A DNA stretch of 64,000 nucleotides from Zanthoxylum bungeanum. Its lineage: Eukaryota > Streptophyta > Magnoliopsida > Sapindales > Rutaceae. Position numbers and translations under genes: made by a program. Of the stretch, positions 24,259 to 57,455 are shown piece by piece (the stretch's first letter is position 1; every line of letters starts with the position of its first letter). Where the stretch lies: the NCBI GenBank assembly GCA_019454045.1, contig SKCR01038874.1:1-64000 (forward strand), written 5' to 3'. The notes below the pieces were generated by a model that was not told where the DNA came from, did not search any database, and saw only the letters and a program-made list of their open reading frames with translations.

Positions 24259-26674
24259 AAATCTAAAGGCTTCCACCAATTTCTCCACCATTTGCTCCAC
24301 CAAACATGGCACCAAATTCTCCACCATCTCCACCAAACATGCAAGCATGTTTGGTGGAAGTTTGACAATTTTCATTTTTTCATTTTATTATTATTTTTTT
24401 ATTTTGAAAATGACTTAAATAATTACACATAACACACTTCCGAATATTTTATCAATATCGGTCATGGAAACTTCAGAATTCGAAATTATTATGAACTTCA
24501 AAGTTGTAGATCTTTGAGTCTTCTTTAATCTGGAACTTGAATCACCTCAATCCGATATCGGCGTAAAACGTTATGGCCAAAATACGACAATTGCACAAAG
24601 TTGGAATTTCTTAAATTGTACTTCGTTAAAACGCCATTTCAAGTTTCCAATCTCCAAAATCAAAATGTCAAGTTCAGTTTTTGCCCTTATTTGTTCCACA
24701 TTTCATCCTAAATGATTTCATCGAGTCCCATTTTATTTTATCTACAAAATAAACTAAAACACATCAAAACGTTCATCAAACCCGAGAAACTAAACAAAAT
24801 ATTAGGTAAAAGGGGCGGTAAATATTGATATATTTTCCGCTCATCACACCCCCAAACATAATATTTTGCTAGTCCTTGAACAAAACAACAAAATAAAATA
24901 CAATAAAAAATTAAAATTAAACTAAGCCACTTTCGTAGGGATCACAGTTGCATTTGGCGTATGCAACAAACTTTTAAACTCTTAGGTGTCCATAGTGGAC
25001 GAGTTGTAGTCTCGTGAGGGCTACAATGACGATACCCACAAACGTCAATCTAATGAACACAAAAGTAAAAAGACAAGAGAAAAGAGAATAAAAAAGTTAG
25101 TGACTAAACAAGTGAAACTTCTTATCCAAGTTAGTAATGGTTTTCTTTCTTTCTAAATTACCAAATAAGTAAATTCTCCGATTATTTTTACCATTTTTCA
25201 TATACACAACCAACAAAGTATTAATCAAATCATTGTGCCCACAATATTCATAAGTGTAGTTGAAAATAGAGTAATATTTTTATCCGAAAGTTATATAAGA
25301 ATTCACACCTTTTTAGCAATGTTTTTTTTTTTTTTTTTTTTTTGCATAAAATAAGGAAAGCAACATCTTCAATCCATGTAACGAGCTTTGGGCCAGTGAC
25401 TCCCAAACCAGTTGGTTTTAGGGCACTAGGTGTTAAAACACCCCTACAGACTTAATTACTCGGATTTCAGATGTTTCTTTTTTTATTTTTATAACATCTT
25501 TGACCCATTTAGCGAGCTTTGGGCTAGTGACTCCCAAGCCAGTTGGCTGTAGGGCACTAGGTGTTAAAACACCCCTACGGACTTAAAGACTTGGATCTCA
25601 GACGTTTTTTTTTATACATATTTTTTTTCTTTTTTTTTATTCCATTGCTTTTTAGATGCTTCCTCCAATCTAGAGCACTGAATATTACAAACTTTTCAAA
25701 TACATCTCATGGCTGTATGTTACCATGCATGTTGATAATACCCGTCAATTGAACATATGAAGATCCAATTTAGTCAGTATTATGGAGAATTCACAAATTA
25801 GATAATTCAAAAGGAAATAAACAAAAATTAACTTGTTACGAAATAGGTTGAGATACGTCTTAGGAGTGAAAATTTATTACATAGCTATCTCACACCAATT
25901 TCACATGATTAATCAAATTAAAAACACAAAAACAAAATATTTTTTTAATTTTTATAAAAAAAAATTTATTTTTTTTTGAATTTTTGACTAAAAAAAACAA
26001 CATAATAAAAATTTAAATAAATATACAAGACACTTTCCTTTAGGTTTTCATGGAGGAATTCCTCCAAAAAAAGCATGAAAATTTACAAAGTTTAGCTTGG
26101 TATTTATAGGCAAATCTAAAGGCTTCCATCAATTTTTCCACCAATTGCTCCACCAAACATGACACCAAATCCTCCACCAAACATACGAAGTTTGACAAAT
26201 TTCATTTTCATTTTTTTTTATTATTTTTTATTTTGAAAATGACTTAAATAATTACACATAACACACTTCCAAATGTTTTATCAATTTCGGTCATGGAAAC
26301 TTTAGAATTCGAAATTGTTATGAACTTTAAAATTGTAGATCTTTGAGTCTTATTTAATCTGGAACTTGAATCACCTCAATCCGATTTGGAGCAAAAAGTT
26401 ATGGCCAAAATATGACAATTGCACAAAGCTGGAATTTATGAAATTGTACTTCGTTAGAACGCCATTTCAAGTTTTCAATCTCCAAAATCAAAATGTCAAG
26501 TCCGGTTTTTGCCCTTATTTGTTCCACATTTCGTCCTAAATGATTCCATTGAGTCCTAATTTTATTTTATCTGCAAAATAAACTAAAACACATCAAAACG
26601 TTCATCTAACCCGAGAAACTAACCAAAATATTAGGTAAAAGGGCGGTAAATATTGATATATTTTCCGCTCATTA
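24259..26674 (-). mobile_element. Athila-type element, copy I, internally deleted to about 2.4 kb
   Basis: A U3-side LTR fragment (24259-24846) ends CCGCTCATCA and is followed at once by CACCCCCAAACATAATATTT, which on the minus strand is the purine tract GTTTGGGGGTG before TGATGAGCGG. The adjoining internal segment 24847-26024 matches 46682-47800 of the complete copy, including the tandem repeat pair. At 26025-26674 a second U3-side LTR fragment follows. So everything between the start of the 5' LTR and the last 1.2 kb of the internal region is gone. It has no coding capacity. Confidence 0.75.
25371..25612. repeat. Two-unit tandem repeat in the Athila 3' non-coding region (copy I)
   Basis: Units of about 131 bp contain CGAGCTTTGGGC, AGTGACTCCCAA, GGGCACTAGGTGTTAAAACA and CCCCTAC. 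The same pair recurs in copies II (28930-29165) and III (47230-47465). Confidence 0.8.
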
Positions 26675-27183
26675 ATGCTCATGAACACAATTACACACAT
26701 AGACTTAACCAATCAAAGAAAATCACAGACCCTCAATAAGCCCCAAATTCGGCCAAGAGAAATCCCACTTGACAAACCATGAGTTTTCAATCAAATATTT
26801 TTTTCCATTCATGTTCAATCATCATCAAAAGCATCAATAATTACTTAATAATACCTTATCTAATCAAATGGGTCAACTTAAGCTTGACTTTATACTAAGT
26901 TCGAAATGGAGTTATGGATTTAAGCATGAAACTTTGAAATATAAGAAAGATTAGGAAATAAAACTTACATGGTGGGTGCTTGCTTGAGAGAAAAAGTTAC
27001 CCTTCTTCGTGTTGGCATGAGTAATATCTTCTTCATCTTCTTTTCATTGTTGAAGAAAACGTGAAAGAAAGAATGAGATCCAAGAGAAAGATGAATAGTA
27101 AGCTGTTTATATCGTGGGGGCTGATATTTTGTAAATAAAATACAATTTTTAATTGAACACATGTCAAATGTTTTTAGACAAAT
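26675..27183. other. No gene seen
   Basis: AT-rich sequence between two retroelement copies. Short open frames have no recognisable similarity. It may be the flank into which the copies inserted. Confidence 0.4.
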
Positions 27184-29390: not shown

Positions 29391-30269
29391 GTTTTTTAAC
29401 TTAAAGAATAAAAATTCAACCGCTGTTAGCTGCTACCTCTAACAAACTAGAGAACTGAACATTATAAAATTTTCACGTACAACCCACAATTATATATAAC
29501 CGTGTCTGTTAATAATATCTGTTAAATGAGCATATGGAAATCAAACTTAATCAATATTATAGAGAATTCAAAAATTTGAATAATTCAAAAAGAAAAAAAC
29601 AAAAATAATTTGTTATGAAACACATTGAGATGCGTCTTAGGAGCGAAAATTCCTTACACTACCATCTCCAAACAACAATTCCACTTGATTAGTCAAAAAT
29701 TTATTGTTGGTATGTGTGTAGTATTTTTTGAATAAAACACAAAAATAATTTTTTTACACAAAAGAATAACAAGGCAAAAACAATATAATTTTTTTTAAAA
29801 AAAAAATAACAACACAAAAATAAAAATATTTTTTTTAAAAAGAAAATACAAAAATGAAAACTATCTAGTCAACTATCACATCCCCCAACCAAATTGAGAC
29901 ATTGTCCTAAATATCTGAATAAGGAGAAGTAGAGTTTAGAAGACATCACCTGGTTTGTGTGGAAAAGACAATTGAATCAACAACACTGATATTTAACAAA
30001 AAAAAGTTACAGATTAAGATTCAAGCCCACTCTACACTTCTTGCCATGATCCTTATTTGACTAGTCCAACTTGAAAAGAATTGGGTCGATTCTTGGTTCA
30101 TAGGCTAACAGTTGGTCAATTAATTCATCAGCATTTCATGCAGTAAAAACATAATCTTTTGCCGGTTTCAAAATGATTCCAAGTCTTTTAGCATCCTCAA
30201 TAAATATTAAAAGAAAATCGAAATATGATTTATATTAAGTAGTCCAATGGATTTTCGGTGAATGTTCAA

Positions 30270-35314: not shown

Positions 35315-37905
35315 TGTAACATCCCCAATCTAGAAGATGCTACTGGAATGGAATAGGTCGTACGATCCCCCTGAGCCTATGACTTTTTAACTATGAACAA
35401 CACAAGTACTCTTTTCAAATATAATATCATGTAAGGTACCACTGCCCAAAATCGTAACATAGATAATAAAATGTTACACGTATAACTTAAACTCAACATC
35501 ACTTATCTTACAATTCTATACATGAGTACTGATACACAACTTTATTATACAATTATCTGAAACTAAGCTTTTTCTTTACTTGACGGAACTTTATCTCTGC
35601 CTTGACCTGGTGGACCGAACACCCTAGTGACTTCCATCAGTATCCATCCTCTTAAGCTCGTCCTCCGAGTAACCTATAAAATAAAAAGAACTATGAGTGA
35701 GGGGTTAGATCGTTTGAACGATCTAAGTGAGTGGACAATTAAAACAAAAACTGAGGTGCTTTTGTGAAAACTCTTGGTTCTAAAACCGAAATTGTCACAA
35801 AAAAATCATTTTTTTTAAAACACTATACTTTTCTGAATACATCACTTTTTCTGTAAAACCTTTCTGGAAAAGCTTTTCTGTCTACAAAAATTTGAGCTTT
35901 TTGAAAGTACTAAATTTTCTTTCTAAAAACTCTTTAATAGAACTTTCATCTCTGAAAACTGCATCTTTGAAAATCTTTTCTCTGAAAATTTATCAGTGAA
36001 ATCTGTATCTAAAAAACCTGACGCATCGGGGCATTACGTATCGTCGTCCCCTCATATGCCTAACTAGTGGTCTTGGGGCTTTACGTATCGCTGTCTCCTA
36101 AGTCATTGAACTAGAGCCAGAAGTACGGATCTATGCTACTACTTGACCCCGAACTAGGATCTAGGGGCATCTGTCATCCCTAGTCTTGAACTAGGATCTT
36201 GGGGCGTTACGTATCGCCGTCCCCTTAGTCCTCTACATATGCACATGTCTATCCGTCAATTCCATTTATGAATCAAGTTACATACTGAGGTGGGTTTTTC
36301 ACCCATGCCTCCAAGAATCATAAATCTCAACATTGAAAATCAATTTTATAAAATATCATCATTCGTAAAACAACTATAAATAAGCTTATCTTTCTGAAAC
36401 ATGCTATTTCTTAAAACAATTGAAATAAAATCTGGCTAACGCCCTAAGTGCTTGAAAGTAAGTCTAATATCAAAATGAATATATGAAAACATTTAGAGAA
36501 AGAGGTCCACTCACTGATTTGGAATATAGCTGCATTGTTACTCTGTCGAAGGAAACTACGGTTCCTATGATGATCTATAATTGATAAACTTAATTAGAAA
36601 ATGGACTGAGGAATACATTACGAAATTAGACTAAATTTATGTATTTAAGTACTCGCCAACATTTCAATGTGTATCATGCGTACATCATGATGTAATGTAT
36701 ATATACGAGCTGATACGAGACCCTTAGGGTGGCCTCTAACATGCTAGGGTGAAACTGAATTAAACTAAAACTAATTTGGGGAAAATTCTGACCAGGCGTC
36801 GCGACACTCACACATGCTGACAATCCAGTGAGCGTCCTCTGTTTACGCGTCGCGACGTAAGTCCCTGGGCATCGCGACGCTCACATTCCAGAAACGGATA
36901 TATGAGAATTTTCCAGTACCTGTCGTGACGCTGGCCCTTGGGCGTCGCAACACTAGCCTGTTTTCCAGGATTCTAAACTAGCTTCCCAAAGTCTATCTTA
37001 CCCCAAATGCATCACCAACACTTCTATGTCTAAACCATTACACAAACCATTACATTAAACTTCAACTTCACATATTCTATACCAAGTTATCATCCTCAAA
37101 TAATTCTTTAATATCATCATTCTTGTTTTTAGCTCAACCCTTAAGAATTTCAAAATTTGGACATTTAATTCTACAATCAATTTCTTTATTTAATAATCAC
37201 CAAAATGCAATCCCTAGCATGCCAATAGCCCTATTTTATCATCATACTCTTAGAATCTTACAATCCAAGTTTTGGGTCAAGTTTTCTTACCTTGATTTCT
37301 TCACACTCTTCAAGTTTCCAATGGTTGTTAATCTTCTTCTTTACTTGATGTAAGAGTATTGGCATTTGATTCCTCTTCTTTTCTTCATTTCATCTTCCTT
37401 ATTCTTTCCTTCTCATTCTTCTCCTCTATGACATTTCTCTTTTCTCCATATTCTCAGGGATGCTTGAATAGTAGTCATATTTATACTAGGCTTAATTGAC
37501 TAATAAGTAATGTTTTAAATTCTTAAGGAAAACCAGAATTTTGAAGAAGTATGTAGAATTCTCTATAGTCATCTCTGGCTACTATTCATTTAGATTTTTG
37601 ATCTATATTATTGACTTTCTTCTAGTTCGAATTTGAAAATATATTCAATGCCGAAGTTGTAGGTATCGATATCATCTTTCTGACGATATAAAATTCATAA
37701 GAACCGGAGTTCGTATGAGAAAGTTATGGTCCAAATATCATAGGTTTTACGGAGTGGAACATCGTACTATCTCGTATCGGAATCTCGAAGAATATTCCGA
37801 TTGTTCCCAAAGTCATTTCATGAGCATAAATGTATTTAAGCATCATTTATATTATGTGACACTCGTCCCACATTGTAACAGTAATTGAGATTTTCGGTCG
37901 TTACA
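35315..37905 (-). repeat. 5' LTR of the LARD-like element (2.6 kb)
   Basis: TG...CA bordered on the minus strand. It contains three degenerate copies of GGGGCNTTACGTATCG followed by a TCNCCT block (about 36019, 36073 and 36195) and a cluster of palindromic CGTCGCGACG-type motifs at 36795-36955. A related fragment in opposite orientation lies at 41061-42263. Confidence 0.85.
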
Positions 37906-38340
37906 TTCATATTTTCCCATGACGCAACTGTGAATACTTCTTCCAACGTGCCCAGCCCACATGGTAAAGAAATAAAAACATCAGTATGATTAATTATTTT
38001 GGTAATACCTGAGATAATCTATTCTTCTCCATTTGATTTTTTGATAAGGTTTCTGTCTACCAAAGTTTTTGGGATGATTCCTAAAACTTGACTACCTTAT
38101 TCTTGCACGGCCTTTGAAACACATCCTATCAATCCAAGATTGCCACTGCCATATACTAGGTGCATGTTTCTTTTCGTCATAAATTTACCCAATTCTTTTA
38201 CGGCCTCAAACAAATTTGGTTTAGTTACACATTTAGATCCATAAAATACACAGATATTAATGACTCGTCGTCTATAAGTTTTCTCCATTTTTGCACACTC
38301 TCTTATTTGGATGTATCAAAGAGAGAAATGACGAGTTGTA

Positions 38341-38652: not shown

Positions 38653-39068
38653 TTAGCAAACACTCTCTAGGTAATCTAGTGCATCTTCGAGAATTTTTTC
38701 CCTAAACTCACCATTACACATCATTTCCACTACTTGTTTACTTTGGGGTTTTAAACCCTCGTAGAAGTAGGAAACCAGCTTCCATGTTTCAAACTTGTGA
38801 TGTGGGCAAACATTCAATATTTCTTTAAATCTCTCCCAACATTGGTAAAGTTTTTCCCCCGACTGTTGTGTGAAAGTTGTGATTCTTCTTTTCAAGGAGT
38901 TTGTCCAGTGATGGGGAAATAATTTTTTCAGAAATATCTCTTCCAAATCATCCATGTTATGATGGATCATTATATAAGGTTCTGCAACCAATTTTAACTT
39001 TATCCTTGAAAGAAAAAGAAAAAAACTTGAGTCGAATTATATTTGAAATTTTGGTATGTGCAAGTATT
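38653..39068 (-). pseudogene. Athila-type gag fragment (copy II)
   Basis: The minus strand carries capsid-type motifs: FSFSFKDKVK, then after a frame change FLKKLFPHHWTNSLKRRITT, YQCWERFKEILNVCPHH, YFYEGLKPQSKQVVEMMCNG and DALDYLES. Plant Athila gag proteins have the same order (SLKDKAK, FLxKFFP, QCWERFKDLLNxCPHH, FYxGL, NGxF). The open part ends in a stop immediately before sequence homologous to the LOG upstream region of copy III. The N-terminal gag is cut off at 39070 by the next element. Confidence 0.82.
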
Positions 39069-42799: not shown

Positions 42800-44858
42800 T
42801 GACCGGCGTAAACACACACGTATAACGCAAGCGCACGTATCGTTCAAGTAGTATAAAAATATCGATCCACGAGGACTTAATATCAAAACTATTAATTTTA
42901 TGAGGTCAAATGATTACTAGTATCTAACAGATTGTTTGATTGATTGATTTGAAATGGTGACGATTCTAAATTTAAAAGCAAGTAAATAAAATTGTCGAAA
43001 ATATGTTTTAAGAAAATTCAATATTAAAAACTATCTAGGGTTGTGATTTCTTCCAATATCATTTTAAAGATGAAGTGGTTATCTTAAAGTTGGGTAATAT
43101 ATTGATTTATTAACCTGGAACACTAAATTATGTGTAAGCCTCTGTCGATGGTCAGACACAAATACCCAGTTAAACCAATTGAACCATATGTCTATGTCAA
43201 CCAAATTATCTGGATTCATTACGTTTAAGTTCCAATTATGGCTACCCCCGCCCGACAGGTATATTCCTATCCTGTAAGGAAATCTATTAAAGGGTTATCT
43301 ATCCTCAAGGAAGATCGTGGGCTATTAAGTCTAAGGTCTTAAACCTAAAATCCCTATGTCTAGTTCATTTTAGATTTACCAGTTCAATTTTATTAATGGC
43401 CAGTTAATAAAAGCATTAGGATTAAGACTCAATAAATAAACCTTTATATTACCCAAACTATAATTTAACCTCTTATAAACCGGTGATATTGGATTTCATC
43501 ACAACCCCAGATAACTGGCTTAGTTACGACACATATTTACAGGTAGTAAAAACTTAAATAAAAGAAAGACATAAAGTAAAATACTAAAAATTAAATACTG
43601 AAAAGTAAATGCTGAAAGTAAATTGCTGGAAAAGTAAATTGCTGAAAAGTAAATTGCTGAAAAGTAAATAAAGTAAAATTACAATAAAAGAAAATGATGA
43701 GGTAAAAGATCCACTTTTATTATTTCTATTTTAGATATCTCCCTTAATAAATATATTAACTTTGCATGATAATACCAACCAGCCATATAGGCGGTATCCA
43801 GATTAAGTCAAATTAATAATTAATTACCAACCGACCAATCAGGCGGTATCCAGTTTAGTCAGGTTAAAACCAATTAAATAATTACCAACCGACCAATATG
43901 GCGGTATCCTCGTTAAGTCAGGTTTTAACTAGTTTATATATTATAATTAAGGGAGATTAATCTAAATATTAGTAATAAAAGTTTACCTTTTCCCCAGCAA
44001 AGGGGAGTTACCTCCTCATTACTGAAAAGTAAAAACTGAAAATTAAAGAAAGAAAAGTACTGTGCGTAAAAGTAAATTACGGAAAGTAAAAACTGAAAAG
44101 TAAAGAAAAGAAAGTGCGAAAGCGGAAATTAATTACTGAAAGCTGTAAATAAACAAACAAGATACAATCTTCTTAGTATTCTTAAGGAATTCCTTAGAAG
44201 AAAGTATGAATTTTACAAATGAAATGGCTTGGTATTTATAGGCAAAATTTTGCCTCCATCAAATCATCCATCAAATTCTCCACCAAATCCATTATTAATT
44301 CTCCACTAATTACTCCACCAAATCCATAATTGCTCCACTAATTGCTTATCTTGTTTGGTGTTGATTTGATAATTTTTATTAATTATTAATTAATTAATAT
44401 TTTGCTTTGAAAATGATTGATAATGACTTTTAATAATTACACTCCACACACTTCTGGATGGTTCATCAATTTCGGTCATGAAATCATCATAATTTGAAAA
44501 TATTTTCTCTTTCAAAGTTGTAGATCGTTGAGTCTTCTTTAATCTGGAACTTGAATCAGCTCAATCCGATATGGAGTAAAAAGTTATGCCCAAAATACGA
44601 CAGATGCGCAAAACTGGAATTTCCAAAACTGCACTTCGTCAAAAACGCCCTTTCAAGTTTCCAATCTCCAAAATTAATATATCAAGTCCAATAATTGCCC
44701 TTATTTGATCCACATTTCATCCTAAATGATTCATGAGACCCGATATTATTTTATCTGCAAAATAAACTAAAACACATCAAAACATTCATCAAACCCGAGA
44801 AACTAAACAAAATATTAAGTTAAAGGGCGGTAAATATTGATATATTTTCCGCTCATCA
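42800..44858 (-). mobile_element. Solo LTR of the Athila-type family, perfect 5-bp duplication
   Basis: TGACCGGCGTAAAC starts and CCGCTCATCA ends the 2059-bp unit. ACAGG flanks both sides (42795-42799 and 44859-44863). It matches the LTRs of the complete element at 44965-56196 but carries an extra stretch of about 300 bp (about 43690-44000) with three repeats of ACCAACC(A/G)(A/C)CC...GGCGGTATCC type. Solo LTRs arise by recombination between the two LTRs of one element. Confidence 0.93.
43787..43925. repeat. Three-unit tandem repeat within the solo LTR
   Basis: Units of about 55-60 bp each contain a TACCAACC block, GGCGGTATCC and then a TTAAGTCA or TTTAGTCA run. They are absent from the two LTRs of the complete element. 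Confidence 0.7.
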
Positions 44859-44964
44859 ACAGGTTCTTGTACGCTTTCTGTGTACCGAGAATTGTAGTGT
44901 ATGGGTGTGATGTCAAGATGGAAGTATCATTAAGTCATATGGAGATGATTATCACACAGGGATA

Positions 44965-46681
44965 TGACCGGCGTAAACACACACGTATAACGCAAGCGCA
45001 CGTATCGTTCAAGTAGTATAAAAATATCGATCCCACGAGACTTAATATCTAATCTATTAATTTTATGAGTCAAATGATTACTAGTATCTAACAGGTTGTT
45101 TGATTGATTTGAAATGGTGACGATTCTAAATTTAAAAACAAGTAAATAAAATTGTTCGAAAGTAGGTTTTAAGAAAATTCAATATTAAAAACTATCTAGG
45201 GTTGTGATTTCTTCCAATATCATTTTAAAGATGAAGTGGTTATCTTAAAGTTGGGTAATATATTGATTTATTAACCGGAACACTAAATTATGTGTAAGCC
45301 TCTGTCGATGGTCAGACACAAATACCCAGTTTAACCCAATTGAACCATATGTCTATGTCAACCAAATTATCTGGATTCATTAAGTTTAAGTTCCAATTAT
45401 GGCTACCCCCACCCGACAGGTATATGTCTATCCTGTAAGGAAATTTATTAAAGGGTTATCTATCCTCAAGGAAGATCGTGGGCTATTAAGTCTAAGGCTG
45501 AAACCTAAAATTCATTTGTCAAGTTTATTTTAGATTTACCAGATCAATCTTATTAATGGCCAATTAACAAGACGCATTAAGCTTAAGACTAAATAAGTAA
45601 ACCTTTAAATTACCCAAACTATAATTAACTCTTATAAATCGTGTGATATTGGATTTCATCACAACCCCAGATAACTGGCTTAGTTACGACACATATTTAC
45701 GGGTAGTAAAAACTTAAATAAAATAAAGACATAAAGTAAATGCTGAAAAGTAAATTGCTGAAAAGTAAATGACGGAAAGTAAATGCTGAAATTAAATACT
45801 GAAAATTAAATGCTGAAAAGTAAATGCTGAAAGTAAATTACTGAAAAGTAAAAGCTGAAAGTAAATTGCTGAAAAGTAAATTACTGAAAAGTAAAAACTG
45901 AAAATTAAAGAAAGAAAAGTACTGTGCGTAAAAGTAAATTGCGGAAAGTAGTAAAAACTGAAAGTTAAAGAAAAGAAAGTGTGAAAGCGGAAGGAAATTA
46001 ATTACTAAAAGCTATAAATAAACAAACAAGATACAATCTTCTTAGTATTCTTAAGGAATTCCTTAGAAGAAAGTATGAATTTTACAAATGAAATGACTTG
46101 GTATTTATAGGCAAAATTTTGCCTCCATCAAATCATCCACCAAATCATTATTAATTGCTCCACCAAATCCATTATTAATTGCTCCACTAATCTCTTATCA
46201 TGTTTGGTGATGATTTGATAATTTTTATTATTTATTTATTAATTTATTTTTTACTTTGAAAATGATTGAAAGTGACTTTAATAATTACACACAACACACT
46301 TTGGATGGTTCATCAATTTCGGCATGAAATCTTCAGAATTAGAAATTATTTTGTCTTTCAAAGCTGTAGATCTTTGAGTCTTCTTTAATTTGTAACTTGA
46401 ATCAGCTCAATCCGATATCAGAGTAAACTGTTATGCCCAAATTACGACAGATGCACAAAACTGGAATTTCCAAAACTGCACTTCGTTAAAACGCCCTTTC
46501 AAGTTTCCAATCTCCAAAATTAATATGTCAAGTCCAATTTTTGCCCTTATTTGACCCACATTTCGTCCTAAATGATTTCATTGTGTCCCAATATTATTTT
46601 ATCTGCAAAATAAACTAAAACACATCAAAACGTTAATATTAAGTAAAAGGGGCGGTAAATATTGATATTTTCCGCTCATCA
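44965..46681 (-). repeat. 3' LTR of Athila-type copy III
   Basis: It begins TGACCGGCG and ends CCGCTCATCA in plus orientation. It contains a minisatellite of AAAGTAAATGCTGA-like units at about 45735-45960. It is very similar to 54443-56196 apart from small insertions and deletions; a gap near 46630 drops the CATCAAACCCGAGAAAC stretch. Confidence 0.92.
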
Positions 46682-46702
46682 CACCTCAAACCTAACATTT
46701 TG
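46682..46702 (-). other. Polypurine tract before the 3' LTR
   Basis: The minus strand reads TTAGGTTTGAGGTG immediately before TGATGAGCGG. Copy I has GTTTGGGGGTG at the same place. It marks the start of plus-strand DNA synthesis in LTR elements. Confidence 0.7.
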
Positions 46703-47229
46703 CTAGTCCTCTAGCAAAACAATAAAATAAAATACAAGAAACAATTAAAATTAAACTAAGCCACTTTTTAGGGATCACAGTTGCATTTAGCATATGCAAC
46801 AAGCCTTTAAACCCCTAGGTGTCCCTAGTGGACGAATTATAGTCTCGTGAGGGCTTACAGCAACGATACCCAAAAACGTTTTACAAAAGTAAAAAGATAA
46901 TAAAACTAATGCACACAAAAGCAAAAGACAAGAGAAAAGAGAATAAAGAAGTTAGTGACTAATCAGGTGAAACTTCTACTCCAAGTCAATAGTTGTTTTG
47001 TTTCATTCTAAATTACCGAATAAGTAAATTCTCCGATTATTTTTACCATTCTCCATATACACAGTCGACAAAATATTAATCAACTCATTTTTTCCCACAA
47101 CAGTCACAAGTGTAGTTGAGAAGAGAATAATATTTTTTCCTGAAGTTTTATCAGAATTCACACCTTTTTGTAGTAATGGAATAATTTTTCTGATTTTTTT
47201 TTCCTATATTTTTTATTTATATACAATAC

Positions 47230-47465
47230 ATTCCATCTATGTAATGAGCTTTGGGCCGGTGGCTCCCAAACCAGTTGGCTTTAGGGCACCAGGTGTTAAG
47301 ACACCCCTACGGACTTAATTACTCAGACTTCAAATATATATATTTTTGCAGCATCTTTGATCCATGTAGCGAGCGTTGGGCCAGTGACTCCCAAACCAAT
47401 TGGCTTTAGGGCACTAGGTGTTAAAACACCCTTACAGACTTAATAACTCGGATCTCAGACGTTTT
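47230..47465. repeat. Two-unit tandem repeat in the Athila 3' non-coding region (copy III)
   Basis: Units of about 126 bp with GAGCTTTGGGCC, GTTGGCTTTAGGGCACNAGG and GTTAA(G/A)ACACCC. Homologous pairs occur in copies I and II. Confidence 0.8.
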
Positions 47466-47884
47466 TTTTTTACTCCATCACTTTTTGAGATGCTTCCTCC
47501 AATTAAACTAGAGCACCGAATATTACAAACATTTCAATTTTAGTTCATGTCTATATGTTTCTATGTATGTTGATAATATCTGCTAACTGAACATATGAAG
47601 ATCCATTTTAGTCAATTTTATGGAGAATTTACAAATTAAATAATTCAAAAGGAAATAAACAAAAATTAACTTGTTCCGATATAGGTTTGAGATACGTATC
47701 AGGAGTGGAAACTCCTTACTCAGCTATCTCTCACCAATTTCACCCTTTTTAGTCAAAATAAAAACACAAAAACACAAATTTTTTTTTAAATTTGAAATTT
47801 TTGAAATTTTTTTGTATTTTTCGAAAAATTTTGGACTAAAAATAAAAAGAACACACAAACTAAGAATAAGGTACTGATCAACTA

Positions 47885-47926
47885 ATTACCTCCCCCAAAC
47901 CTAAATGAGACATTGTCCCCAATGTC
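47885..47926 (-). other. Athila signature sequence downstream of LOG
   Basis: The minus strand reads GACATTGGGGACAATGTCTC followed by ATTTAGGTTTGGGGGAGG. This block is typical of the region between pol/env and the 3' LTR of Athila-type elements. A diverged version lies at about 29880-29920 in copy II, in the same position after LOG. Confidence 0.75.
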
Positions 47927-47986
47927 TTAAACATTAAAAGAAGAGTTAAGAAGGTCGTACCTGGTTAGCTGAAAATCTACAGGAAA

Positions 47987-48640
47987 TTAAAGGTTAAGAT
48001 CCAGATTAACACGACGCCTCTTACCACGATCGTCCTCGGACCAATTTATCTTTGAAAGGATAGGGTCAAATCGTGGTTCATAGGCTAAGAGTTGGTCAAT
48101 TAGATCCAGAGCAGTTCTGGCAGTAAAGAGGAGTTCTTTCAAAGGTTTTGACACGAACCCATTTCTCCGGGCATCATCAAGAAATACACAAAGAAAATCA
48201 TAAAATCCTTCAACGTTGTATAGTCTAAGTGGTTTCTGGTGTATGTTCAGGTTTGCCCAAGATAGCACAATAAAAATTTCCTCCAATGTACCCAAGCCAC
48301 TTGGCAAAGCAATAAAAGCATCATCACGGTTAATCATTTCTACCAGTCGTTCAGACATACCTGGCACGATCAGTTCCTCTCCGTTTGATGATCCAATAAG
48401 ATTTGCCTCTGTCAAGGGTTTTGGGATGATTCCCAAAATGTGACTGCCTCCCTCCTGTACGGCCTTTGAAACGATCCCCATAAGTCCAAGATTGCCTCCG
48501 TCATATATTAAGTGCATATTTCTTGCAGCTAAGACTCGACCCAATTCTTGTGCTGCTTCTACGTATTGTGGCTTAACACAAACACTACTACCGCAAAACA
48601 CACAGATGTTTTTAACTCGTCTTCTTGAAGTTGCTTCCAT
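47987..48640 (-). CDS. LOG: LOG-like cytokinin riboside 5'-monophosphate phosphoribohydrolase carried by a retrotransposon
   Basis: Known LOG enzymes cut cytokinin riboside monophosphate to free cytokinin and ribose phosphate in the cytosol. The 217-residue product (MEATSRRR start) has NICVFCGSSVCVK at 11-23, HLIYDGGNLGLMG at 43-55, HILGIIPKPL at 67-76, SERLVEM at 96-102 and LPSGLGTLEEIF at 112-123, then SWANLNIHQKPL. The family motif PGGxGTxxE reads PSGLGTLEE, so one glycine is serine, while the catalytic Arg (98) and Glu (121) are kept. Length fits the family (about 210-230). I chose this ATG because the diverged copy starts at the same point; an in-frame ATG lies 8 codons upstream. There are no introns, unlike host LOG genes, which points to capture from mRNA. 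The tail ends NLDLNL. It lies in sense with gag/pol, 47 bp after a Cys-rich ORF's TATA-bearing spacer. Activity is unproven. Confidence 0.88.
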   Translation of the reverse strand: MEATSRRRVKNICVFCGSSVCVKPQYVEAAQELGRVLAARNMHLIYDGGNLGLMGIVSKAVQEGGSHILGIIPKPLTEANLIGSSNGEELIVPGMSERLVEMINRDDAFIALPSGLGTLEEIFIVLSWANLNIHQKPLRLYNVEGFYDFLCVFLDDARRNGFVSKPLKELLFTARTALDLIDQLLAYEPRFDPILSKINWSEDDRGKRRRVNLDLNL

Positions 48641-48894: not shown

Positions 48895-49278
48895 CTATGC
48901 GTCAGGGACAAGCTTTCCATCCAATTTTATTATAAATTGGCAAACATGGTCTTTTTGAGTCAGATTCCCGAGACTTAACAGTTGTCTTTCTTTTTGGAAT
49001 TGTGTATGTAATTTGTGAATGGCTATGTGAACATATCCACTGGGATGCGTCTCAAGAGTTGAAGATATATCATCTAAAGACTCCTTACTCAAGCCATCTC
49101 TAATGAATTTAATTTTGTCTTCACGATTATCAGACACCATTCCTAAAGAACGACAACGAGTATTGCAATTCCAGCGTGCACATTTGTAAAAAACACTCAT
49201 TTGTTTAACTCTACGTTTATTTGTGTAGGCATTGCATTTTTGCATATCAGCCCGATGATGAGTCTCGTATGGAGACAC
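48895..49278 (-). CDS. Unrecognised Cys-rich ORF upstream of LOG
   Basis: A 127-codon uninterrupted frame. Probable core from MSVFYKCARWNCNTRC, then SLGMVSDNREDKIKFIRDGL, SKESLDDISSTLETHPSGYV, HIAIHKLHTQFQKERQLLSL and VCQFIIKLDGKLVPDA. No signal peptide or membrane segment is evident, and the composition looks like a real coding sequence rather than chance. I do not recognise the family. The last block (VCQFIIKLDGK) is also present, in damaged form, next to the gag fragment of copy II (about 38610-38655), so it belongs to the module that travels with LOG. Confidence 0.45.
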   Translation of the reverse strand: MSPYETHHRADMQKCNAYTNKRRVKQMSVFYKCARWNCNTRCRSLGMVSDNREDKIKFIRDGLSKESLDDISSTLETHPSGYVHIAIHKLHTQFQKERQLLSLGNLTQKDHVCQFIIKLDGKLVPDA

Positions 49279-49290
49279 TACCTCTTTAGT

Positions 49291-51186
49291 TGTGAAAGCC
49301 GCGAGAAACGGACGTTGGAAGGGTAAAGTGGGAAATTATCATTTTGTCAGATTTAACTCGCTTGTTTCGCTTCGAGTTCGCTTGTTGGACCTCTGTTTTA
49401 AAACACACCAAACCCATTAAATCACATCCAAAAATAATTAAAACATTTAAAACACATCTCACAAATTAAATAATTAAAACATTTAAAACACATCTCACAA
49501 ATTAAATAATTAAAACAAAATTAAATTAAATTAAAACACATTTCACAAAATAAATAATTAAAATAAAATTAAATTAAATTAAAACACATTTCACAAATTA
49601 AATCACATTCCTAAATTAAATTAAATCCCTTTCCTAAAATACATAAATCATATTCCTAATTTAATTAAATCACCTACCAATTTAAATAAATCATATCCTT
49701 AACTAAAAAGAATAAATCAAATCACTTCCCTTAATTAAAGATTTCCCCTATCATATTTTATTAAAAGAATATCTCACAAATCCTATTTCTTCCCTAACAA
49801 GGTAAAACCCATCCCCTTGCCTATAAAAATAACCCCTCTCCACACATTCAAAACCCTGGCTGGCTGGCTAATCCTCACGAAAATACAAAGAAAATAAACC
49901 TTGCTTCAAGCCCCAAGCAAATCGAAATCTGCCAAGCCCCTTTCACAGCCACAAGATCACACTCCACGCCACATAGCCCCTAGACCATCTGACCTCACGC
50001 AAATTGCCACAGTTTGCCCGCACGTTGCACCCTCCATCACGCTGCTTCAAGCCCTCAATTCCACACGCCACCTGCCCTCACAAGCGCCCAGCTCATAACC
50101 ACTAAAACAAACACACGAACCCTTCACGCTAAAGCCTCACAAAGACACTTGCCCTTTGATCGCACGAGCCCTTGCCTCACAAAGCCACCAGCCCTTTCGC
50201 CCACTACTTTCTGCCTTCCAATTCCCCCCTCGCCTCACGCTAATCACGTCTTCACACACACTGCAGCCTCACGCCCAATTCGGTCCCAAAACCAGCCCAG
50301 TTCAGCTAAAAAATAGTCCCCAGAAACTGCACAAAATAGTAACAAAAACAGCCCAAAACAGTCCCCAAATCTGCCCTAAACAGTGACTAGAAGATACCCC
50401 TCAAATAGCAGCCAAATAGAGTGAAAACAACAGCCCAAACAGCGAGGAAAAACATCGGATCAGTGAACCAGAAAAGTTACGGAACATCAACCCTTCCGAC
50501 GGCCGTGTAACGCGCTTTCGAGAGACGACAAAAGAGGTTAGACCTGAGGGCACCTTTTTACTTATCTTTTATTTTTGTTTTATTTATTTTGATATATAAT
50601 TGCATGAGAGTCGTTTGAAGCATGATGTGATTGTTGGATGAGCGGGATATGTGTTCCCTTTTGTGGTATATCGGATGGAAACCCGGACGTAAATTCCATT
50701 GCCGATTCCGAATGGACGGTAATATGGTCTGCACTCGGGATACAATGCCACGTACCACTTAAGATACATGTATCTCGTCTCATCCAAATTTGTATTTGAG
50801 CATGCTTAGTCTTTAGGTTATTTGTTTATTATTTAAAGCATGGTTTAATTTAGTTTGTTATTTATTTGTTAAAGCATGTTTAGGTTGTTCTTTACGCATG
50901 TTCTTAGTTTATGATGCGTTTGGGTAATAATTTATACATGTTGATTTTATGGTTCAATATGTTTGTTGTGTTACATTGCGTGGAATTATTTGGATGAAAG
51001 CATGTTAGATCTAAGTACCCTTGAGCATGAATGTTGAATAGATTCGGTTAGTTTATTGCACAAATTATATCATCACAAGTGACATAAGTAAGAGACCATT
51101 CCGAACCCAACGGTTTGAGGTCTTCCCTTTCGAGGGGTGAGTGCGGCCTTAAACCTTTGTCCCGGTTCACACCGGGTGGCGACTCC
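49291..51186 (+). mobile_element. Tat-type LTR with primer site, inserted in copy III
   Basis: It starts TGTGAAAGCC and ends about 51171 (GGTTCACA). Five bases on comes TGGCGACTCC (51177-51186), the tRNA-Arg-type primer site used by Ogre/Tat elements. A TATA box CTATAAAAATAA lies at 49821-49832 on the plus strand, followed by a C-rich leader (49850-50400) in which short proline-rich frames are open by chance. Tandem AT-rich repeats with AAAACACATCTCACAAATT occur at 49440-49600. The far border (about 51240) is unclear and no target duplication was found, so how it arrived is open. Confidence 0.6.
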
Positions 51187-51315
51187 ATGTTATTTCGTAC
51201 TCCCAACTAGGCCGTGAGCCTAAAACAGCGTCGTCAACATTCTGTTGTCTACAATTTGCATAGGTGCTTCTTCCAAAACCAGACAGATGTGAAATAAAAA
51301 AGTCAGAAGACTCAC

Positions 51316-51511
51316 CTGCCAATCAGACTCGTGCTTCAATTACCCAACGAATGTCATTAGGAACACCATAGATTGTTAGTAGTCTCATCCGTTCCAAGCG
51401 AGCTTTGTAGACTTTCATCAGAGAGTTTTGAGGGAGAGACAGAAATTGCTTGTGAAGATTTGCGAGAACTTCTTCCATCCTGAAATGTCTTAATCTGCAA
51501 AAACTAAACAC
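51316..51511 (-). CDS. Unrecognised ORF segment ending at a splice-donor-like site
   Basis: From 51511 the frame reads MFSFCRLRHFRMEEVLANLH, then FLSLPQNSLMKVYKARLERM and YGVPNDIRWVIEARVDWQ. Directly after the last glutamine comes GTGAGT (CAG|GTGAGT), a consensus 5' splice site. It lies between the pol remnant and the Tat-type LTR segment. I do not recognise the protein. It could be an exon of a captured gene or part of an env-region transcript. The LHKQF block weakly resembles LHTQF of the ORF at 48895-49278. Confidence 0.4.
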
Positions 51512-51589: not shown

Positions 51590-51985
51590 TCGTCAGCCAG
51601 ACTTGACTTATTGAACGTTAAGCTAGATCTGAAAGTGTAGCACTTTCTTTTTGTCGCTCAAATGATTCTCCCCAGTAGTGTTTGACACGCTTGTTTTTAA
51701 CCTTGAAAGTTTTGTTGGAGTCAGGATCATGTATCTCAACGGCTCTATCTGGTAAAACCTTGGAGATCACAAATGGACCTGACCACCGTGATTTTGGCTT
51801 CTATAGGAAGAATTTCACCCTTGATTTGTTTAACAGTACCTTCTGCCCTGGTTCCAGTTGTATGCGCACTAACTTCTCATCATGTCTTTTCTTGCCCTTT
51901 TCTTTGTACAATTTGGCATCCTCAAAAGGCTGATTGTGAAATTCCTCCAATTCGTTGAGCTGGTGGAATTTTTCTCTTCTGTTGC
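51590..51985 (-). pseudogene. Athila integrase C-terminal region remnant
   Basis: Read on the minus strand: QLNELEEFHNQPFEDAKLYK, RIQLEPGQKVLLNKSRVKFF, a stop, then KSRWSGPFVISKVLPDRAVE and DSNKTFKVKNKRVKHYWG. Relatives have LDELEE, YKEKTKRWHD, GQKVLLFNSRLKLFPGKL and KSRWSGPF. Shortly after lies GCGCTTGCAGGGAGACAACC (about 51560-51585), close to the sequence found after pol in many Athila elements. Confidence 0.85.
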
Positions 51986-51989
51986 TTGT

Positions 51990-52843
51990 AGTGCAAGAAT
52001 AGGCTTCTTCAGTACGCAGTGTGCTTTATCTTCAGGCTCCACATGCAATTGACATGTTTTAAGTTTGTCAGTAGAACTTTGCATTGCATTGGAGTTCTGA
52101 ATGGTACTGTGTATCACATCAAGTCTGAAAACATTCCTCATTCTTTTCATCTTCTGGGAAATTCATGGCCTTGAAAACATTGAATGTTACTTCTTGGTCT
52201 TGTACCCTCATGGTTAATTCTCCTTTTTGTACATCAATAATGGTTCGACCTGTAGCCAAGAATGGTCTTCGAGAATGATCGGCACGTCTTCGTCTTCCTC
52301 CATATCAAGGACATAAAATCTGCTGGGAAAATGAATTTGTCAACCTTGACCAGCACATCCTCAACTACGCCTCTTGGAAATACGAGCGTTCTATTAGCAA
52401 GTTGTAGAGAGACTGAAGTGGGCATTGTTTCTCCAATCTGCAGTTTCCTGAAAATAGAAAAAGGCATCAAGTTAACACTTGCACCTAAATCACATAAAGC
52501 CTTACCAAAGTTATGTTCTCCTATGATGGCATGGAATGTGTGAAACTGCCAGGATCTTTCAACTTCAGGGGAAGTTTCCTCTGAATGATGGCATTGCATT
52601 CTTCTGTTAATGCTATTGTCTCGTAATCTCCCAATCTCCGCTTTCGTGAAAGAATGTATTTGATGAATTTGGCATAGCTAGGCATTTGTTCCAACGCTTC
52701 TGCAAATGGAATGTTGATATGTAGCTTTTTGAAGATTCCAGGAACCGAGAAAACTGCTTGTCCAATTTGTTCTTCTGAAGACGTTGAGGAAAATGTGGAG
52801 TTGGAATGATCTGTTCTTTTTCCTTTGCTTCTTTTTCCTCCAT
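51990..52843 (-). pseudogene. Athila-type protease and linker to RT (copy III)
   Basis: ALCDLGASVNLMPFSIFRKL (DLGA active-site motif) is followed by VSLQLANRTLVFPRGVVEDV and KFIFPADF. Past a frame change the RPFLATGRTIIDVQKGEL-type and VFKA-type blocks of Athila are visible, then CQLHVEPED. At about 51985 this passes directly into integrase C-terminal sequence. RT, RNase H and the integrase core are missing at this joint. Confidence 0.85.
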
Positions 52844-52869: not shown

Positions 52870-54336
52870 CCTCAGCAGCTGTTTTGGCTCCAACATCTTT
52901 GTTGATTTCAGTACCGCTTTTTAATATGATGGCATGACATTGCTCCTCCCCATGTTCCTTAGATTTGGCTCTGTGTTGTTAGGAAGGGTACCTGGCGGTC
53001 TGTAACTCTGAGCATTTGCCAGTTGTCCAATTTGATTCTCCAGTGCTTTAATAGAAGCAGATTGACTTTGAATTAATGCTGATGAGATTGAAACATAGCA
53101 TCATATCTTGCTGATTGAGATTGAACATAGTATCATATATTGCTGCTTGAGAGTCGTGTTTGTTTCTATCTTTTTCAAGTGGGTCACACTTCTGTTATTC
53201 CTGGTTCATTTGCCTGCTCCTGGCTTTTGTTCTGTTGCTGGAATTCAGATGGTGGATAGTTCTGCTGTTGGCCTGAATTGTTGCTCCATGAAAAATTGGG
53301 ATGATTCCTCCACCATGGGTTGTAGATGTTGGAATATGGATTGTTCCCCTGTTTGTTGAAATTGTTGACATAATTCACCGTCTCTTCAAGTTGGTTCGAA
53401 TCTGGTGCTCCTCCATATGGTGAACTTGTGGATCCAGTGGTAAAAGTCTCCATGAATTTGCATATCTGATCTAGCTTGGCGTTGACTGCTGTATTGGCTC
53501 CACTTTCATAAATTCATGCAATTCAATGGATCATGCTCATTTCTGTTGGCCACAAGGAATTGTTGTTGGCCATTTCTTCGATTAGGTCCCAGGCTTGATC
53601 TTCTCCTTTTGCCATCAAGGCTCCTCCAACAGCAGCATCGATTGTGGTTCTCATTATTCCAGAAAGCCCATTATAGAATGTTTGGACTTGAAGCTATTTT
53701 GGAATCTCATGGTGAGGACATTTCCGGAGCAAATCTTTGTACTTTTCCCAAGATTCGCAGAGGGATTCTGAATCTTGTTGTACAAAGGATGTGATGTCAT
53801 TCCTCAGCTTTCCAGTTCTAGCTGGTGGAAAGTACTTTGCAAGAAATTTGGTTGCTAAAGTGTTCCAAGTTATGATGGAACCTGCTAGTAGTGAATGTAG
53901 CCAAACTTTAGCTCTGTCTTTCAGGGAATATGGAAAAACTCGCAGTCTCATTGCTTCTTCTGATGCTCTGTTGTAGTTGAAAGTACGCAAACTTCCAGGA
54001 AGTTACTGATGTAGGCATTAGGATCTTCAGTTGCATTCCCCCCGAACTGAACTGATTGCTGAATCATCTGAATGCATGTTTTGATATCACAAGCATTGCT
54101 AGTAAGGGTGGAAGTAAAATACAGGAAATGAGTCTGTCAACCACCGGAATGGTTCTGTCTCGAATGGGAATTGGTGGTGCAACCTCCAAAGGTTCAAGTT
54201 CCATGTTGACTAAAGCTTCTTGGCCTTCTCGTCTTTCCCTTCTCAACTGTCTGATGGTTCTTTCAATTTCTGGGTCAAGCGGTCGGAGTTCAAAGCTTCT
54301 GGTTCGTCTCATGTAGTTTCTGAGAAGCTGAAACAC
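52870..54336 (-). pseudogene. Athila-type gag (copy III), frame-broken
   Basis: The start near 54336 gives RSFELRPLDPEIERTIRQLR. A frame change leads to VFPYSLKDRAKVWLHSL, FLAKYFPPARTGKLRNDITS, ESLCESWEKYKDLLRKCPHH and, after a stop, LQVQTFYNGL, then GTTIDAAVGGAL-like and QAWDLIEEMANNN. The C-terminal part (53184-53453) is Asn/Gln-rich (NPYSNIYNPWWRNHPNFSW), as usual in Athila gag before the protease. Several frame changes and stops exist. Sequence differs clearly from the gag fragment of copy II. Confidence 0.85.
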
Positions 54337-54420
54337 AAGAAAATAGTAATAATAAGTAAAAAGAAATTAGATACAAGTAAAGTATCTAACCCCACAACTA
54401 ATAGTGAAAGATAAATAAGT

Positions 54421-54440
54421 CCCGGCAACGGCGTCAAAAA
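54421..54440 (-). other. Primer binding site (tRNA-Asp type)
   Basis: The minus strand directly after the 5' LTR reads TTTTTGACGCCGTTGCCGGG. This matches the TGGCGCCGTTGCCGGGG primer region typical of Athila-lineage elements, with one change, and fixes direction and lineage. Confidence 0.85.
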
Positions 54441-54442
54441 CT

Positions 54443-56196
54443 TGACCGGCGTAAACACACACATATAACGCAAGCGCACGTATCGTTCAAGTAGTATAAA
54501 AATATCGATCCATGAGGACTTAATATCTAATCTATTAATTTTATGAAGTCAAATGATTACTAGTATCTAACAGGTTGTTTGATTGATTTGAAATGGTGAC
54601 GATTCTAAATTTAAAAACAAGTAAATAAAATTGTTCGAAAGTAGGTTTTAAGAAAATTCAATATTAAAAACTATCTAGGGTTGTGATTTCTTCCAATATC
54701 ATTTTAAAGATGAAGTGGTTATCTTAAAGTTGGGTAATATATTGATTTATTAACCTGGAACACTAAATTATGTGTAAGCCTCTGTCGATGGTCAGACACA
54801 AATACCCACTTTAACCCAATTGAACCATATGTCTATGTCAACCAAATTATCTGGATTCATTAAGTTTAAGTTCCAATTATGGCTACCCCCGCCCGACAGG
54901 TATATGTCTATCCTGTAAGGAAATCTATTAAAGGGTTATCTATCCTCAAGGAAGATCGTGGGCTATTAAGTCTAAGGCTGAAACCTAAAATTCATTTGTC
55001 AAGTTTATTTTAGATTTACCAGATCAATCTTATTAATGGCCAATTAACAAGACGCATTAAGCTTAAGACTAAATAAGTAAACCTTTAAATTACCCAAATT
55101 ATAATTTAACCCCTTATAAATCGGTGCTATTGGATTTCATCACAACCCCAGATAACTGGCTTAGTTACGACACATATTTACGGGTAGTAAAAACTTAAAT
55201 AAAATAAAAGACAAAGTAAATGCTGAAAAGTAAATTGCTGAAAAGTAAATGCTGAAATTAAATACTGAAAATTAAATGCTGAAAAGTAAATGCTGAAAAG
55301 TAAATTACTGAAAAGTAAAAGCTGAAAGTAAATTGCTGAAAAGTAAATGCTGAAAAGTAAATTACTGAAAAGTAAAAACTGAAAATTAAAGAAAGAAAAG
55401 TACTGTGCGTAAAAGTAAATTGCGGAAAGTAAAAACTGAAAAGTAAAGAAAAGAAAGTGCGAAAGCGGAAATTAATTACTAAAAGCTATAAATAAACAAA
55501 CAAGATACAATCTTCTTAGTATTCTTAAGGAATTCCTTAGAAGAAAGTATGAATTTTACAAATGAAATGGCTTGGTATTTATTGGCAAAATTTTACCTCC
55601 ATCAAATCATCCACCAAATCAATTATTAATTGCTCCACTAATTACTCCACCAAATCCATTATTAATTGCTCCATTAATCTCTTATCATGTTTGGTGATGA
55701 TTTGATAATTTTAATTATTTATTTATTAATTTATTTTTTGCTTTGAAAATGATTGAAAGTGACTTTAATAATTACACACAACACACTTTTGGATGGTTCA
55801 TCAATTTCGGGCATGAAATCTTCAGAATTAGAAATTATTTTGTCTTTCAAAGCTGTAGATCTTTGAGTCTTCTTTAATCTGAAACTTGAATCAGCTCAAT
55901 CCGATATCGGAGTAAACTGTTATGCCCAAATTACGACAGATACACAAAACTAGAATTTCCAAAACTGCACTTCGTTAAAACGCCCTTTCAAGTTTCCAAT
56001 CTCCAAAATTAATATGTCAAGTCCAATTTTTGCCCTTATTTGACCCACATTTCGTCCTAAATGATTTCATTGTGTCCCAATATTATTTTATCTGCAAAAT
56101 AAACTAAAACACATCAAAACGTTCATCAAACCCGAGAAACTAAACAAAATATTAAGTAAAAGGGGCGGTAAATATTGATATATTTTCCGCTCATCA
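54443..56196 (-). repeat. 5' LTR of Athila-type copy III
   Basis: TGACCGGCG to CTCATCA, 1754 bp. The minus-strand 5' end is TGATGAGCGGAAAATATATC, a form common in plant Athila LTRs. It carries the same AAAGTAAATGCTGA minisatellite at about 55210-55460. Confidence 0.92.
55210..55460. repeat. Minisatellite in the 5' LTR of copy III
   Basis: Repeated units of about 14-16 bp of the form AAAGTAAATGCTGA or AAAGTAAATTGCTGA. The same array, with different unit numbers, is at about 45735-45960 in the 3' LTR and 43600-43680 plus 44030-44120 in the solo LTR. Confidence 0.85.
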
Positions 56197-57455
56197 GGAT
56201 GCAAAACTAGTACTCGTAAATGTTGCAGCTATCAGGATAGTATGACTAGGTCATGATTATCCGATTACAGAGATTAGTTGCTAGTGATCCGATATATGCT
56301 TCATATGGGGCAGACACAATTCCAGCCCTAGGCCTAGCATGTGACATCCGATACTGGATCGTATTACGCAATACATTATATACTACGCCTGATACAGATT
56401 ATATTTTCCTCGTTTAATATTTCTGGAGAATTGGGTAGACACAGTGCTTTGCTAGAAGCCAACCATGTCTTGTAAATCTGTAAGAACGTGGTACCAGGTA
56501 CACACATATTCGGATAGTCCGATGACCAGATTTACTGCCAACATATCCAGGGATCTCTTGGGTCGCTTCCCAAAGATCACTGATGACATTTGACTCGAAC
56601 AGAATTAATCTTGGATTAATTATGAGAGAGAAAATTAATCTGGGATTAATTACAGCGAGAATTTATCTTGGATTAAATTCGTTTAGAAGAGAGAACGCGA
56701 TTAATTTGGAATTAATCGACAAAGTAAATTTAATAGTTAAATTATATTTTACTATTTAATTTATTTAATTGGGCTAAAATAATATATCAGATATATAATT
56801 GAAATTAGATTTCAATACAAAATTAAAATTGGATTTTAATTCAAGCGAACAAATTAATTTGGATTAATTTGTAAGCGACTTTCATAATAATTTTGCTAGG
56901 CATTATTATTTAAATTAAATTGGATTTAATTACGTCACAACGGAAAATTCGTTTAATCGGATTAAATGAACCCGGGCCCAAAGTGTGTTGTATAAGCCAA
57001 CTAAATTTGGAATTTAAAGTGGTGGGACCCACTTTACTTATATCAAATATTTGACATTTGATGGAGGTAGTTGGGCTTTAAATTAAATGAATCCATTTAC
57101 TTTTCACCTACCTTGTTTTTGGAAAACAATTTGTTAAACTTTGTTTTGGAAACCAAAAGACAACACAACACAAAACTCTCTCATTCTTTTCTCTCTACAT
57201 GGCCAAAACTTCTTATTCTTATTGGAGGAAAATTTTGTTTCATTTTGTTCAAGCTAGCACTTAAAGGGGTCATAGAAAGGTGATAGGGAAACTCACCATT
57301 GAGTTTGGAATTCACTTTAAAGGCTTAGAGCTTCTACATCCATGGAATTTTTGAAATCCTAAAACCGATCAATGTAAGTTATTCTGCAAACTTTCTTGAT
57401 TAATTCACACTAGAATCATGTTTAGGATCCTTGGAATGTCTTAGAGACACTAACA

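Follow-up and report, generated by a model that had tools for sequence, protein, structure and literature searches.

LOG domains are said to have been noted in gypsy elements by Steinbauerova et al. in 2011, in line with a later report on Citrus and Populus. In that report, a YgdH/LOG domain is given for Ty3/gypsy consensus sequences of Citrus sinensis and C. clementina and, under a laxer filter, for a gypsy consensus of Populus trichocarpa (PMC9289625). The same report describes, for gypsy elements of Phalaenopsis, an extra ORF for an AlkB-type m6A demethylase that was tested in vitro. Among the matches listed in our literature search, this was the only paper with LOG in gypsy elements, and because it reports the Citrus and Populus cases, a LOG gene in such an element is of a known kind.

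Here we describe a LOG-like ORF in a 64,000-nucleotide stretch of Zanthoxylum bungeanum DNA (the window). The host belongs to the same plant family as Citrus. A preliminary description of the locus had presented the ORF as an intact gene, captured from an mRNA and carried by a retrotransposon, which might act as a mobile cytokinin gene.

A LOG-like ORF within an LTR retrotransposon

The ORF list gave 217 codons, uninterrupted from an ATG, on the minus strand. The product matched Pfam PF03641 (3.7e-31), and its nearest solved structures were AtLOG3 (2a33; 4.5e-56) and AtLOG8 (1ydh; 6.1e-46). An AlphaFold2 model made from an input of 42 sequences had a pLDDT of 86.4, and Foldseek placed 1ydh and 2a33 on top, with TM-scores of 0.92 and 0.93 by target length. 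The Pfam, AlphaFold2, and Foldseek results all give the ORF the fold of the LOG enzyme family, which bears out the identity assigned to it earlier and rules out a chance ORF. The features of the window to which the text refers are as follows.

48640..47987, minus strand: LOG-like ORF, 217 aa, ATG start, C-terminal KRRRVNLDLNL
54443..56196, minus strand: 5' LTR with ends TGATGAGCGG...GCCGGTCA, a direct repeat of 46681-44965
44965..46681, minus strand: 3' LTR, from direct-repeat comparison
56197..56201, minus strand: left copy of the target-site duplication, CATCC, read by eye
44960..44964, minus strand: right copy of the target-site duplication, TATCC (4/5), read by eye and from LTR comparison
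54420..54436, minus strand: primer binding site, tRNA-Asp-like, read by eye
53184..54336, minus strand: gag region with a broken frame, from ORF pieces and Pfam
52234..52599, minus strand: protease-like piece (DLGAS), read by eye and alignable with the matching region in other copies
51620..51931, minus strand: putative integrase C-terminal remnant, read by eye
51265..51478, minus strand: 5' part of ORF182 (end approximate), read by eye, with the break point inferred from copy comparison
49230..51264, minus strand: later insertion of ~2.0 kb splitting ORF182 (borders approximate), from copy comparison
48895..49229, minus strand: 3' part of ORF182, from the ORF list and comparison with whole forms elsewhere
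46682..47986, minus strand: noncoding stretch from LOG to the 3' LTR, common to the family, from copy comparison
37869..38291, minus strand: older LOG copy, N-terminal part, 58% identical, with stops, from protein comparison
30010..30231, minus strand: C-terminal part of an older LOG copy, 55% identical, from protein comparison

Of the term intact, only the open frame stood. Four glycines that hardly vary across the family alignment (positions 21, 47, 114, and 139) are replaced in the window LOG, and nearly all of the 31 own-genome copies compared differ from the window there. One of the replaced glycines sits in PGGxGT: the window reads PSGLGTLEE where the family has PGGxGTxxE, a motif that is mostly canonical in the relatives, while the catalytic Arg and Glu are retained. 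Because near-invariant glycines are lost, the product of this copy, judged from its sequence, is probably weak or dead, which would make it a poor candidate for altering growth at its landing site.

Two LTRs with TG..CA ends, a target-site duplication, and a primer binding site identify the surrounding sequence as an LTR retrotransposon. The 5-base target-site duplication is perfect (5/5) in three other copies (C49108, C29600, and C48130). The primer site agrees at 15 of 17 positions with the end of tRNA-Asp. Retrotrans_gag (PF03732) matched 53697-53990 (1.8e-18). The LTRs, primer site, and gag all lie on the minus strand, and LOG is in sense within the element, as the preliminary description had it; its protease is seen by eye through DLGAS, presumably the protease motif, and had no match in the Pfam scan. 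The statement that gag, protease, and integrase are broken holds for the gag frame, but comparison with other copies shows that RT/RNase H, upstream of the integrase remnant, is missing and not merely broken. Copy C29600 has an RT ORF, with RVT_1 and RNase H by Pfam, between its protease and integrase pieces, and extra ORFs near pol are present in the copies compared. Athila elements (OTA clade) are characterized by an extra ORF region near pol and no archaeal RNase H (PMC6317226). The insertion that splits ORF182 is absent at that site in six type I copies, which have a window-like layout without RT; pieces of it occur elsewhere in the genome in other contexts. The LTR pair has 25 mismatches in 1,693 aligned bases, a divergence of 0.0149. 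At the rate of 3.92e-9 per site per year given for Z. bungeanum in PMC8417289, the element inserted about 1.9 (about 2) million years ago.

The window holds further related sequence. The piece at 30010..30231 probably belongs to the same older LOG copy as that at 37869..38291; the older copy, in two pieces and with stops, has the orientation of the window LOG and can be aligned over nearly its whole length. An LTR-like pair (30270-30880/35315-35939) separates its two pieces. A third LTR of the window element's family (42800-44858), seemingly a solo LTR, stops ~106 bases short of that element's own 3' LTR. Rfam snoR71 (RF00097) matched 53704-53810 and 38792-38899 (plus strand), antisense in gag-like sequence of both LOG-bearing elements, and this Rfam family may in part describe retrotransposon DNA.

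The LOG-bearing family in the host genome

The host genome searched comprises 51,709 contigs totaling 3.956 Gb. A matK-like stretch, presumably a plastid insert in nuclear DNA, was closest among named proteins to Zanthoxylum calcicola (86% over 72% of the query), followed by named matches from Rutaceae and other Sapindales, which points to a Rutaceae host, probably Zanthoxylum. One 20-base word from the end of LOG had 21,335 exact matches in this genome, and its reversed control had 0. The word is present in 25 of the 32 copies chosen by a noncoding query and 31 of the 34 chosen by LOG (both sets are defined below), and scaling the matches by this presence gives roughly 23,000 to 27,000 LOG ends in the genome. 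With the LOG protein as a query, there were 70,242 first-look candidates; 150 were scored, nearly all of them full-length with 89 to 93% identity, and 4 contained a stop (146 had none).

Direct repeats (LTRs) flanked LOG on both sides in all 10 copies examined over 20 kb each, in support of the earlier view that the element carries LOG, and showing that its family does. LOG is read from the coding strand and follows pol and ORF182, with the 3' LTR beyond it. Judged by similarity to the pieces of the window element, there are three layouts. Six of the 10 copies have the window-like order gag, protease, integrase end, ORF182, and LOG, without RT, and three are short forms that keep LOG, with gag and protease undetectable. 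The third layout, found in a single stretch, has gag and protease together with an RT ORF (RVT_1 and RNase H), ORF182, and two LOG copies in tandem, one of which is frameshifted. The short form L021 (C49108) has a 274-aa ORF (6508-7329, minus strand) ahead of LOG, in the region in which gag and protease are undetectable; the Pfam scan gave no match for this ORF. We saw LOG inside elements in the host genome; for Populus and Citrus, this context is taken from PMC9289625.

Several LTR pairs differed by gap openings more often than by mismatches (C49108, 15 and 4; C38453, 17 and 4). This suggests that the assembly carries indel errors, and frameshift counts were therefore distrusted.

Pocket, catalytic residues, and tail of the LOG clade

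In a tree of 52 proteins, a retroelement-type clade of 42 rows, 4 of them from the own genome, splits with full support from 10 canonical LOGs. Relatives of the window LOG in this clade are named from Populus and Paulownia, and many relatives at 47 to 85% identity are open over 217 aa. LOG is thus found family-wide and within an older clade, which does not fit a recent single capture by the window element.

For CgLOG, PMC4979012 proposes a prenyl pocket made up of Met96, His97, Lys100, Glu125, and Trp129, all of which AtLOG3, OsLOG, and CpLOG share. Lys100 has a further part in holding adenine, and catalysis is attributed, again as a proposal, to Arg99 and Glu122. In place of this cytokinin-specific Met, His, Lys, Glu, Trp, the window has Met95, Ser96, Leu99, Ile124, and Trp128 (M,S,L,I,W); it retains Arg98 and Glu121. 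Neither the pocket Lys nor the pocket Glu (positions 99 and 124) survives in 39 of the 42 clade rows, the window and the own-genome rows (4) among them; all 30 canonical proteins aligned have both. The catalytic Arg98 or Glu121 is altered in 5 of the 42 rows, and enzyme action may therefore be lost in some members. The clade has kept the fold and, for the most part, the catalytic Arg and Glu and has lost pocket residues that would hold the cytokinin side chain.

An LxLxL motif, which we take to be an EAR-type co-repressor motif, was found within 14 residues of the C terminus in 88 of 100 relatives (those of at least 205 aa among the best 120 of 396 matches) and in 0 of 120 proteins nearest to AtLOG3 (the best 120 of 7,998 matches, mostly named LOG1, LOG3, or LOG4-like). 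The window tail, NLDLNL, fits this motif and follows a basic run, and in the noncoding-chosen set, the tail codons hold the best-kept 20-base words of LOG. With both the active pocket and the tail changed, the clade product probably no longer makes cytokinin. The three exceptions to the double pocket loss, P0016, P0027, and P0031, branch first in the clade. P0031 combines the host pocket with an LxLxL tail, and P0027 combines it with a basic tail without LxLxL, which suggests that the LxLxL tail was gained before the pocket residues were lost.

Selection on LOG

At first, the counts seemed to favor a LOG that is specially preserved: 146 of the 150 scored matches were without stops, 32 of 34 copies picked by LOG score were open in full register, and these 32 had a mean dN of 0.017 and dS of 0.135 (ratio of 0.13). 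In this LOG-chosen set, variants in five or more copies numbered N 6 and S 20 and private ones N 34 and S 40 (19 codon positions showing more than two different bases were left out). Since choice by LOG score biases this set, we drew a second sample with a 600-base noncoding query, which gave 5,093 first-look candidates, of which 40 were scored. The sample comprises 32 of the 39 places besides the window (one of the 7 left out was a contig end). Three of its copies had no LOG, 12 of the 29 LOG bearers had an in-register stop, and 4 of the 32 copies were open over the full length, a count that may be lowered by assembly indel errors; another, L084, was open and aligned from base 10 only. Special preservation was dropped, because the copies that spoke for it had been chosen by LOG score and only 4 of 32 were open in the noncoding-chosen sample. 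The contrast drawn earlier between an open LOG and broken surroundings loses its force for the same reason.

Variants were counted in 23 rows, 22 noncoding-chosen copies and the window, after setting aside the 3 copies without LOG in the stretch, 3 under 60% covered, and 4 further copies; codon positions showing more than two different bases, 43 in all, were left out. In these rows, dN/dS for LOG was 0.33. Private variants (N 80, S 38, and stop 8) were not different from neutral (P = 0.18), whereas variants shared by two or more copies (N 38, S 43, and stop 1) departed from it (P = 5e-7); the neutral expectation was N/S 2.74 and ~6.8 stops, from the same spectrum without CpG context. Private and shared variants also differed from each other (P = 0.005). 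Shared variants are under purifying selection, and private ones are not. Source elements have therefore kept LOG, while single copies decay. Recurrent mutation can also produce shared variants, mimicking sharing.

In 12 LOG-chosen rows, there was no difference between private variants (N 18 and S 30) and shared ones (N 14 and S 24), as expected if choice by LOG score hides decayed copies, although this is not proof. The dN/dS of LOG in LOG-selected copies (0.16) was near those of gag (0.22), the protease region (0.19), and ORF182 (0.26), which span 0.19 to 0.30 on 7 to 10 rows.

ORF182, a NABP-like neighbor

ORF182 of copy L029 matched the nucleic-acid-binding protein (NABP) family Viral_NABP (PF05515) at 6.3e-7 and 30.0 bits, above the Pfam gathering score of 23, and the carlavirus family Carla_C4 (PF01623) at 2.2e-6 and 28 bits (cutoff of 20.9). 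Both families were found in 3 of the 5 ORF182 proteins scanned (E of 0.01). The cut piece in the window matched neither PF05515 nor PF01623, and the second protein that was missed looks frameshifted across the matched part. The genome search with Viral_NABP gave 19,137 first-look candidates, and all 150 places scored were above the cutoff; the same search of 14 control genomes found a match in none. In C19176, one such place ends 449 bases before a listed LOG. At C23952:418412-429796, seven Viral_NABP-type matches form a tandem array with a spacing of 1,815 to 1,876 bases. The viral contigs searched held no relatives of LOG or of ORF182. No NABP-like ORFs in retrotransposons were found in the literature searched, and the matches listed for viral p12 and cell proliferation included nothing relevant.

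Discussion

We judge it likely that a Ty3/gypsy family (putatively Athila/Tat-type) has LOG as a resident accessory gene put to a new use, and not as a mobile cytokinin gene. We see next to no chance that an ordinary intron-bearing host LOG gene lies here with LTRs as coincidental neighbors: the frame is intronless, LOG holds the same place relative to the LTR in the copies read, and these LTR-flanked copies, together with the 21,335 word matches, refute a host LOG locus at this site. None of the findings that would have told against the preliminary description appeared, as no normal host locus occupies the site, LOG is present in other family members, and the LTRs match. A working cytokinin enzyme, whose active cytokinin would favor dividing cells and hence transmission of the element, is also unlikely. 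It would agree with the LOG fold, PGGxGT, and catalytic Arg and Glu kept in most relatives listed, and iPRMP was a substrate of the plant LOGs that others have assayed (PMC11593424); against it stands the loss, in 39 of 42 clade rows, of the Lys and Glu of the adenine/prenyl pocket (PMC4979012). The same loss, in which the window shares, weakens the idea of a mobile cytokinin gene.

Few open copies among those chosen by noncoding sequence (4/32) and nearly neutral private changes are what one would expect of a functionless passenger, caught once and copied along with source elements. That LOG is such a passenger is nonetheless very unlikely, as the shared variants reject neutrality, the second LOG of the window is still alignable over nearly its whole length at 55 to 58% identity, and the many diverged relatives have stayed open.

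As a resident, repurposed accessory gene, LOG would have been taken from a host LOG mRNA. Early-branching relatives would have kept the host pocket, the LxLxL tail would then have appeared, and the two pocket residues would have been lost after it; the family, with LOG aboard, has grown to over 20,000 copies in this Rutaceae genome. The product may be nuclear by way of its basic tail and recruit a TOPLESS-type co-repressor through LxLxL, and/or it may hydrolyze some nucleotide that is not the cytokinin precursor. That the product enters the nucleus, binds a co-repressor, or acts as an enzyme is a prediction, and LxLxL is a short motif. Together with its nucleic-acid-binding partner, LOG would aid expression of the element or its escape from silencing. 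The window copy itself would be a decaying passenger ~2 million years old.

A more far-reaching reading, which we regard as rather unlikely, is that a gypsy lineage made of a host cytokinin enzyme either a nuclear adaptor for co-repressors or a hydrolase acting on another nucleotide signal, paired with a flexivirus-type NABP in a two-gene cassette that would blunt host silencing or defense. Such a lineage might date back to the divergence of the plants that its clade names. If this reading were true, viral suppressor genes would have their counterpart in a retroelement, one amplified over 20,000-fold within a single plant. Plant gypsy elements often carry extra ORFs, most of which lack an explanation; the one described here is recognizable as a host enzyme whose pocket is documented, its family is large enough to measure selection, and the order of branching points to what was altered and at which stage. 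The NABP-like ORF and the LxLxL tail make an anti-silencing accessory cassette a testable idea. Such copies should not be annotated as cytokinin (LOG) genes.

In the literature searched, and as far as the matches listed for LxLxL in transposons and LOG in Zanthoxylum show, the present findings are not in print; new are the copy number, the constraint on shared variants, the pocket loss, the LxLxL tail, and the NABP-like partner. The Citrus and Populus gypsy elements share with the window family a LOG-family domain inside a gypsy element; in PMC9289625 they are reported as presence in consensus sequences, while copy number, selection, pocket loss, LxLxL, and the NABP neighbor are described for the window family. 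ORF182 resembles the flexivirus Viral_NABP/Carla_C4 proteins in its Pfam match above the gathering score and in a basic run followed by a Cys cluster, and differs in being retrotransposon-encoded; its Cys spacing also looks different from the virus pattern. The AlkB ORF of Phalaenopsis is likewise a host-type enzyme fixed as an extra gypsy ORF and proposed to aid the element, but it is a different enzyme, and the activity of LOG here is a prediction. With the LONELY GUY phosphoribohydrolases (AtLOG3, 2a33; AtLOG8, 1ydh; CgLOG, 5its), the clade shares the fold and, in most members, the catalytic Arg/Glu and the phosphate loop; unlike them, it has lost the pocket Lys and Glu, carries a basic LxLxL tail, and is intronless and mobile.
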